A DNA stretch of 64,000 nt from Nitrosopumilus sp. K4 (GTDB lineage Archaea > Thermoproteota > Nitrososphaeria > Nitrososphaerales > Nitrosopumilaceae). Position 1 is the first letter of the stretch; the number at the start of each line of letters is the position of its first letter. Below the pieces are notes generated by a model. That model was not told the DNA's origin. It ran no database searches and saw only the letters and a program-made list of their open reading frames with translations. Made by a program: the position numbers and the translations under genes. Positions 39,404-42,797 of this stretch are shown here, one piece after another. The stretch covers positions 1,032,164 to 1,096,163 of the forward strand of contig NZ_CP067007.1 of the NCBI RefSeq assembly GCF_018128925.1, read 5' to 3'.

Positions 39404-39844
39404 GTGAAACAGGACATTAAACAAATTTTATTGCCATATGATGGAACTAAAAGTAGTGAAAGAGCGTTTAGATATGCACTACAACTAGCAAAAGTGCATC
39501 AAGCAAAATTACTTACTCTTACATGCATAAAAGATCAGGCAGCATTTGGATTTTTTAAACTAGAATCAGATAAAAGAAAAATGGAAAAACAGAAAAAAAA
39601 TGCAGAAAAAAGAATCGAAAATTTGAAAAAAGAAGCAGAAAAACTTGAAGTTCCAATAAAATCAAAAATTGTAAAGTGTGATGTTATTTCAAAAGGAATT
39701 GTAGATTATGCAAAAAAGCAAGATGTGGACATTATAACTATGAGTAAAACCAAGCATGGGACAGCAGCAGAAAAAATGTATAGCGAAAGCACCGTCGACA
39801 AAGTTTTTGATAACGCACCATGTACGTTTGTGCATGTCAAATGA
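39404..39844 (+). CDS. Universal stress protein, UspA family
   Basis: 146 aa from GTG. Begins I-L-L-P-Y-D-G-T-K-S-S-E-R-A-F-R-Y-A, the family's first strand and helix, with a lysine-rich central helix. The C-terminal G-x2-G-x9-G-(S/T) ATP-binding signature is not clear (M-S-K-T-K-H-G-T-A-A-E), so it may belong to the non-ATP-binding class. Its stop overlaps the tfb start by 4 bp. Confidence 0.85.
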   Translation: MKQDIKQILLPYDGTKSSERAFRYALQLAKVHQAKLLTLTCIKDQAAFGFFKLESDKRKMEKQKKNAEKRIENLKKEAEKLEVPIKSKIVKCDVISKGIVDYAKKQDVDIITMSKTKHGTAAEKMYSESTVDKVFDNAPCTFVHVK

Positions 39845-40767
39845 GCATGAATCAAATTTTACACAAATGTAATGAAAACAAAGTTGTTTTGATTACAGAT
39901 GAGATCACAGGGGAGATTTTTTGTAGTTCTTGTGGTGAAGTTCTAAGAGACAAAATAGAAGATAGAGCAAACGAATCAAGAATATACACAAAAGAGCAGT
40001 ATTTTAGTAAATCAAGAACAGGCACACCATCAAAAATTTCAATGTTTGACATGGGAAATTCATCGATAATTAACAAGCAAAACATAGATTCGACAGGCAG
40101 ATTTATCCCATCAAAAAACAAGTCACATTTTTCGCGTTTGCGTTTATGGGATTCTAGAAGTAAGAAAAATTACAAGGAGAGGAACCTAGTCGAGGCATTC
40201 ACAATTCTAGATTCAATTACAACCAAACTAAACATTCCTGAAAATACAAAAGAACAATCAGCGTACATTTACAGGAAGGCATTAGAAAAAAAAATCATTC
40301 GTGGAAATTCAATCAATTCTATGTTGTCAGCTTCAATCTATGTTTCTTGTAAGCAATCAGGAATACCAAGAAGTATTGACGAAGTTGCAAAGGCAGCAAA
40401 TCTCAAGAGAAAGACTCTTTCACGAACCATCAGGCGCATAATCCAGAAATTGGAGTTAGATACAACATCAACAAAATTAAACTATATTTCCAAAATAGCA
40501 AATGCAGTAGAACTAAGTGAAAAAACTGCAAGGTTGTCAAACAGAATATTTGAAGACGCAAAAAAAGAAAAAATACATGTTGGAAAAAATCCCATTGGAA
40601 TGTCTGTGGCTTCAGTTTACATTTCAGCATTAGGATGTGGCGAAAATGTTTCAATGGCCAAACTGTCAAAGAAGAACAACATTAGCACTGTAACAATCAG
40701 AAAACTTGTAAAATTGTTAAGACCATTTGCTGCAAAATACATTGAAACTATAGAGATCACAAAATAA
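39841..40767 (+). CDS. tfb: Transcription initiation factor TFB paralog
   Basis: 308 aa from ATG 39841. Two cyclin folds (residues about 115-205 and 215-305; K-Q-S-G-I-P-R-S-I-D-E-V-A-K and V-A-S-V-Y-I-S-A-L-G) identify TFB. The N-terminal zinc ribbon keeps the second knuckle (C-S-S-C-G) but its first knuckle is only H-K-C, so one Cys appears replaced or shifted. Thaumarchaea have several TFBs; this one, coupled to a stress protein, may be a specialised one. Confidence 0.93.
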   Translation: MSMNQILHKCNENKVVLITDEITGEIFCSSCGEVLRDKIEDRANESRIYTKEQYFSKSRTGTPSKISMFDMGNSSIINKQNIDSTGRFIPSKNKSHFSRLRLWDSRSKKNYKERNLVEAFTILDSITTKLNIPENTKEQSAYIYRKALEKKIIRGNSINSMLSASIYVSCKQSGIPRSIDEVAKAANLKRKTLSRTIRRIIQKLELDTTSTKLNYISKIANAVELSEKTARLSNRIFEDAKKEKIHVGKNPIGMSVASVYISALGCGENVSMAKLSKKNNISTVTIRKLVKLLRPFAAKYIETIEITK

Positions 40768-42287: not shown

Positions 42288-42797
42288 ATGAGTACGGTAA
42301 ATATTCCAGACGAGTTTGACAAGACGATAAAAAAGCTACCACTAGAAGAGAGATTCAGGAAACTTGAAGAGATTTTCAAGACGTCAAAGGATGAATCTGA
42401 AAGATGGGATGCAGTTTGGCTAGGAGGGGAAATTCCTGTCGAAGTTAACCTACAGGGACCATTGTTTGAAAAAATGACCGATTTGTTTGCATGGGTTTTA
42501 AAAAACGATCCAAATGATGTTGTGCGTCACGAAGTATGCTATCAAATTGCAGCTAGAAACATGAGGAGGATAATCCCAGAGTTAGCGCATGCTGCAAATT
42601 ATGATCCAAGTCCCCTTGTGCGCCATGAGGCAACAGAGTGTTTGATGATCATCAGGGCAACTGATCAAATATCAGCAATCGAGAGATCCCTTAAAGATGA
42701 AAACGAAAGTGTCAGAAATACAGCTGAGCTTGTCCTAAAAAGAATGAAGAGATACAAATCACAGTTTGATGCAAAATCTGAATGGGTTTCAATCTAG
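42288..42797 (+). CDS. HEAT-repeat protein with two His-Glu pairs
   Basis: 169 aa. Three to four HEAT-like helical pairs. Two of them carry His-Glu: R-H-E-V-C-Y (H81-E82) and R-H-E-A-T-E (H113-E114), 32 residues apart. Eukaryotic deoxyhypusine hydroxylase (DOHH) uses four such pairs, two per half with 33-residue spacing, to hold a diiron centre, so this protein looks like one DOHH half. An alternative is a scaffold of the PBS-lyase HEAT family. Its stop overlaps the opposing membrane gene by 4 bp. Confidence 0.75.
   Translation: MSTVNIPDEFDKTIKKLPLEERFRKLEEIFKTSKDESERWDAVWLGGEIPVEVNLQGPLFEKMTDLFAWVLKNDPNDVVRHEVCYQIAARNMRRIIPELAHAANYDPSPLVRHEATECLMIIRATDQISAIERSLKDENESVRNTAELVLKRMKRYKSQFDAKSEWVSI

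Follow-up and report, generated by a model that had tools for sequence, protein, structure and literature searches.

Putative half-size archaeal relatives of deoxyhypusine hydroxylase and a divergent paralogue in Nitrosopumilus sp. K4

Introduction

Human deoxyhypusine hydroxylase (DOHH; PDB 4D4Z and 4D50) is a HEAT-repeat protein with His-Glu pairs on successive repeats, and each chain of eight repeats is made of two symmetrical halves that together carry four such pairs. The positions given for them in the accessible part of PMC9117371 (H56, H89, H207 and H240) agree with the spacing of 33 residues that an earlier reading of the DNA studied here (the original prediction) had ascribed to the enzyme, and the same part of that source describes G214 as a substrate-contacting glycine and names G65 as well. 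In archaea, as far as the available portions of four reports go (PMC3306375, PMC5178350, PMC6105217, PMC8153317), DHS is present, an orthologue of DOHH is unrecognised, and some species contain hypusine. Sulfolobus acidocaldarius is reported to be one of these (PMC5178350, in part), and aIF5A of S. solfataricus was found by mass spectrometry to be hypusinated (PMC6105217, in part). Within the open-licence PMC literature the full name of DOHH never appears together with Poseidoniales or Thermoplasmatota, hypusine never appears together with Nitrosopumilus, and among the other papers listed an archaeal DOHH is claimed in no title or abstract start.

The original prediction proposed that a small HEAT protein of Nitrosopumilus sp. 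K4 resembles one half of DOHH and that it could rebuild the enzyme's diiron site as a homodimer. Here we compare this protein and its archaeal relatives with DOHH and weigh the explanations that might account for them.

Results

The stretch of DNA analysed (the window) comprises 64,000 nucleotides of the Nitrosopumilus sp. K4 genome, which is one contig of 1,645,909 bases. An ORF with an ATG start at 42288..42797 on the forward strand encodes 169 amino acids plus stop, and the Pfam model HEAT_2 (PF13646) matches residues 66-150 of its product (42483..42737, forward strand) with an E value of 2.6e-14. The ORF and this match together confirm that a HEAT protein is encoded that carries two His-Glu pairs 32 residues apart: H81-E82 (42528..42533, forward strand), which aligns with human H56-E57 and H207-E208, and H113-E114 (42624..42629, forward strand), which aligns with human H89-E90 and H240-E241. 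The window protein therefore shares with DOHH its HEAT repeats and the placement of the pairs on successive repeats, and differs in having two pairs and a single half where DOHH has four pairs and two halves, and in a spacing of 32 rather than 33. Its AlphaFold2 model is a confident HEAT fold (mean pLDDT 91.7) with nine predicted helices, so that in the model the 169 residues would amount to about one half of DOHH.

HE pairs spaced 31-34 residues apart arose in 285 of 200,000 shuffles of the window protein, and one of the 76 ATG-started ORFs of at least 100 amino acids in the window, presumably that of the window protein, has HE pairs at such spacing. The shuffles and the conservation described below rule out a chance origin of the motif, the conservation in homologues being what decides the matter. 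The genes flanking the window gene and its closest relatives, an EamA transporter gene and a gene for a protein without a Pfam match, are uninformative on function. Elsewhere in the window, at 39820-40767 on the forward strand, lies a 315-codon ORF whose product looks, on visual inspection, like a transcription factor of the TFB type.

Relatives of the window protein were sought in 300 genomes of the phylum and matched in 56; the proteins found fall into two groups that are about 36% identical to one another over their core. Group A, to which the window protein belongs, has 24 loci spread over 23 genomes of the window organism's family, with one further divergent protein in a genome of another family (G278); one genome (G126) has two A genes 31 kb apart (C2:136606-137052 and 167811-168254). 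A profile of group B found one B protein in each of the same 56 genomes with E values of 2e-72 or lower, cleanly separated from the A proteins, which scored between 2e-18 and 7e-16. B is present in all 44 genomes listed of the window organism's own family and in three each of two further families of the order, which makes 50 genomes listed. Because unmatched genomes sort after matched ones and the first unmatched genome is related only at the level of the phylum, we take B to be present in every genome sampled from these three families. Group A is present in 23 of the 44 family genomes and always alongside B (23/23). The B protein of the window genome is encoded at G000:C1:306782-307267 (L001:1336-1821), and its AlphaFold2 model has a mean pLDDT of 92.6. 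Redoxin and cupredoxin genes flank B and say little about its function.

For residue-level counts we read 44 of the 56 B proteins. A third HEAT_2 protein of the window genome (L003) was excluded from the A and B sets, as were two duplicates (L002 and L038). The original prediction had staked itself on conservation of the pairs in archaeal homologues, and it survived, since both pairs, exactly 32 residues apart, are kept in all 25 distinct A proteins and in all 44 B proteins read. When 21 A and 23 B proteins were aligned, 12 columns proved invariant, those of the His and Glu residues among them. L003 is without His-Glu pairs. The 44 B proteins also end in an invariant TGG, like a ubiquitin-type tail.

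When the window protein was compared with all solved chains by phmmer, human DOHH was the top match (E = 6.2e-11, the next chain at 2.2e-05), and the alignment spans both DOHH halves with the His-Glu pairs in register, so similarity to each half is observed directly. A profile of group A likewise placed DOHH first (1.1e-20, next 1.8e-13). Designed alphaRep proteins, which have many repeats, outscored DOHH when B was searched, and the best natural match of B was again DOHH, at 2.2e-35 with a profile (proteasome Rpn2-type chains followed at 7e-12) and at 4.3e-25 and 92 bits with a single sequence. Structure comparison was more equivocal. Foldseek ranked DOHH first for the window model, as its sole match at E <= 0.001, whereas for the B model DOHH came at rank 31, after designed HEAT proteins, and in VIA-align 2 with the window protein DOHH was absent from the top 50 entries; given these last two results, the modelled fold by itself does not single out DOHH.

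Half-size relatives far closer to DOHH emerged when genome contigs from 84,980 species were scanned with an alignment headed by a fragment of the human N-half; 457 stretches matched, 425 of them confirmed. The best 80 of the 425 form what we call the marine group II set, a term covering sequences labelled Poseidoniales, Thalassarchaeaceae or marine group II, or labelled just as Euryarchaeota or Thermoplasmatota archaea. All 80 ORFs, mostly of about 159 amino acids, contain one set of two His-Glu pairs 33 residues apart. One of these proteins matched human DOHH with an E value of 1.2e-75 and 256 bits, above all designed proteins, and aligned with the N-half at 119.6 bits and with the C-half, including the linker SVDPAPP, at 136.1 bits. 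Viral carriers were considered too and rejected, since ten stretches fitted the search pattern and none was confirmed as a relative.

For the core alignment we took 69 of the 80 marine group II ORFs, having dropped ten shorter than 150 amino acids as called and one open at a contig end. Over its 127 core columns, mean identity to the human N- and C-half was 23% and 19% in group A (25 proteins), 31% and 33% in group B (44) and 46% and 48% in marine group II (69), as against 39% between the two human halves over the same columns. Each of the 138 archaeal proteins in the alignment has the full set of metal-binding His and Glu residues. Together with the phmmer, profile and Foldseek results, the core identities rule out a plain HEAT protein unrelated to DOHH.

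Half-size proteins also occur in other Thermoplasmatota. Matches were found in 59 of 243 Thermoplasmatota genomes, or 57 once two plain HEAT proteins without a His-Glu pair (G490 and G540) were removed; 58 of the 59 have one copy and G303 has two. Among 17 further half-proteins read from this phylum the spacing is 32 in seven and the linker motif is present in 15. One locus (L200, in G407) has internal stops and yielded no ORF. In-frame stops were seen in two half-DOHH matches, G399:C36:95378-95845 (one TGA) and G407:C122:4338-4772 (one TAG and one TAA), which are either decayed genes or assembly errors. The Thermoplasmatota proteins resemble the window protein in consisting of a single half with two His-Glu pairs, mostly in one copy per genome, and those of marine group II differ from it in being far closer to DOHH, in having the linker and in their spacing of 33. 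On these sequences, relatives of DOHH of half its size are widespread in two archaeal phyla.

Among the marine group II loci, the best 80 of the 425 stretches, the half-DOHH gene lies directly behind an mqnD-like menaquinone gene (PF02621) on the same strand in 78, with a gap of only one or two bases in 36 of these 78, and a second, mqnA-like PF02621 gene is nearby in 62 of the 80. As this neighbour is common to 78 of the 80 loci, and as the copy in G319 sits on a contig of 2.06 Mb, contamination with eukaryotic DNA is an unlikely source of the half-proteins.

Residues beyond the metal ligands distinguish the groups. By our own alignment the pocket glycine column corresponds to human G63 and G214, while the pair given in the accessible part of PMC9117371 is G65 and G214. 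This column holds Gly in all 44 B and all 69 marine group II proteins and Ala in 24 of the 25 A proteins, in which the two positions that follow (Q and M in DOHH) are altered too; B retains the Gly-Gln. The R26 column is Asp in every A protein (25/25). The B pocket departs from DOHH at M86, which is Phe or Ile, and at E93, which is Ile or Val; E93 is retained in all 25 A proteins. The linker pattern [ST][VT]DP[AP]P occurs in every marine group II protein aligned (69/69) and in none of the 25 A or 44 B proteins, and SVDPAPP as printed for human DOHH is absent from A. With the His and Glu columns complete, and with Ala for the pocket glycine and changes at its neighbours and at R26, group A appears from its sequences to have kept the metal site and altered the pocket.

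Trees, in which human DOHH was the sole eukaryotic representative and from which L194, L202 and L203 were omitted, recovered A (support 100/99) and B (96/91) each as a single group and placed both human halves inside the Thermoplasmatota group (99/95); the branches are long, and a warning of long-branch attraction was raised. Neither an arrangement with the human halves as sisters (p-AU 0.221) nor one with Thermoplasmatota as one clade (p-AU 0.205) was rejected. From A to human DOHH the sequences form a bridge by way of B, other Thermoplasmatota proteins that have the 32-residue spacing of A and B, and the marine group II halves. The marine group II proteins lie at about the same distance from either human half, a distance smaller than that separating the two halves, so half-proteins of this sort would suit a pre-duplication form of DOHH; transfer from eukaryotes followed by loss of one half is a possible alternative origin.

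The window genome encodes an aIF5A with the motif GKHGAAK (the loop with the modifiable Lys) and two DHS-family genes (G000:C1:848971-849825 and 544483-545376), one of which may make a polyamine instead. Most Thermoplasmatota carriers of a half-DOHH likewise list two DHS-family genes. DHS-family genes are present in 236 of the 243 Thermoplasmatota genomes and none of the seven without them carries a half-DOHH, which says little. Genes for aIF5A or DHS were absent from flanks of up to 3 kb at the 80 marine group II loci (best 80 of 425), from about 1 kb around 20 further Thermoplasmatota loci, and from flanks of 0.4 to 1.5 kb around A and B. The window genome also encodes COX1, a mark of O2 respiration. 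Of the 56 B carriers 55 have COX1, against 58 of the 244 other genomes of the phylum; in Thermoplasmatota the figures are 54 of 57 half-DOHH carriers and 53 of 186 others. The association follows kinship in both cases, and it fits an O2-dependent enzyme all the same.

Discussion

The marine group II half-proteins, with 46-48% identity to DOHH and an SVDPAPP-type motif like that of the human enzyme, provide good support for regarding the superfamily as half of DOHH, and the window protein appears to be its most derived branch. We give about even credence to the reading that the window gene is a paralogue in an archaeal half-DOHH family of diiron HEAT dimers, in which B is the likelier aIF5A(deoxyhypusine) hydroxylase and A serves another substrate or forms a heterodimer with B. 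Each chain, some 160 residues long, would form a single HEAT solenoid in which two consecutive repeats bear a His-Glu pair each. Two chains would face each other like the halves of human DOHH, and the four pairs would bind a diiron centre for O2 activation and hydroxylation of a substrate; such a diiron dimer is likely. B, the universal paralogue in ammonia-oxidising archaea, would be the likelier hydroxylase of aIF5A(deoxyhypusine). The window protein keeps the metal ligands and has a changed pocket, and for this reason most probably acts on another substrate or together with B as a heterodimer. Similarity to both DOHH halves, the invariant pairs, the bridging intermediates, the aIF5A, DHS-family and COX1 genes of the window genome and the constant company of B speak for this reading. 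Against it stand the changed pocket of A, the departures of B from DOHH, the equivocal structure comparisons, designed proteins outscoring DOHH for B, flanks free of aIF5A and DHS genes, and the want of a HEAT_2 match in S. acidocaldarius.

A broader proposal, to which we give somewhat less than even credence, is that the homodimeric half-DOHH is an archaeal form found in two phyla, that in Thermoplasmatota it is a working deoxyhypusine hydroxylase, that a half of this kind, duplicated and fused, gave rise to the eukaryotic enzyme, that B has the same function, and that A has diverged as a paralogue acting on a substrate of its own. By their sequences the marine group II proteins are half-size DOHH candidates, for which hypusine formation seems probable.

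HEAT folds are mostly scaffolds, and the window protein and its relatives might be scaffolds too, bound to no metal and catalysing nothing, with the His-Glu pairs retained for structural reasons or to bind a partner. The failure of structure comparison alone to single out DOHH is in keeping with this. Yet the exact metal residues of DOHH are invariant across groups whose identity to the human halves is no more than about 20-48%, and a paralogous HEAT protein of the same genome (L003) does without the pairs; we regard a pure scaffold as unlikely, if well worth bearing in mind.

As the original prediction envisaged, this archaeon's deoxyhypusine hydroxylase might be the window protein itself, acting as a homodimer. 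The full His-Glu set in every A protein, DOHH as the best match of the A profile, and the retention of E93, which B has lost, speak for this. Its group, however, is the most divergent from DOHH, has exchanged the pocket Gly for Ala in 24 of 25 proteins and occurs in only 23 of the family's 44 listed genomes, all of which, the window genome included, have B, a paralogue closer to DOHH. We therefore think this identity improbable and hypusine formation by A unlikely. The resemblance to both halves of DOHH thus stood up, and the role on aIF5A has so far found no support; B and the Thermoplasmatota proteins look like better hydroxylase candidates than the window protein.

The mqnD-like and mqnA-like neighbours raise the question of whether the half-size proteins, at least in marine group II, serve quinone metabolism rather than aIF5A, these neighbours being present at 78 and 62 of the best 80 loci, respectively. 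The PF02621 neighbour is nevertheless absent from the A and B flanks and present at only 8 of 20 further Thermoplasmatota loci (within about 1 kb), and a DOHH-like linker in 69 of 69 proteins with 46-48% identity argues for DOHH chemistry, so that a quinone role strikes us as quite improbable. Finally, phycobilin lyases and NblB have HEAT-like repeats in common with these proteins. Among NCBIfam models NblB fits B best, at 40.5 bits, and likewise two Thermoplasmatota proteins, at 35.9 and 35.8 bits. These weak matches fall far short of the 300-bit cut-off and below the DOHH scores of B (92 bits) and of a marine group II protein (256 bits), and a search with the window protein gave no match to NblB at E <= 1, which rules such an identity out for practical purposes.

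The family is not the general archaeal answer to hypusine, since S. acidocaldarius, in whose genome we found no HEAT_2 match, is reported to contain it, as is aIF5A of S. solfataricus, on the accessible portions of those two reports. If the proposed role is true, it would name the missing hypusine enzyme for some archaeal lineages. Half-size candidates so near to human DOHH make the archaeal hypusine question directly testable in laboratory strains, and they suggest a route by which the two-half diiron enzyme of eukaryotes may have come about.
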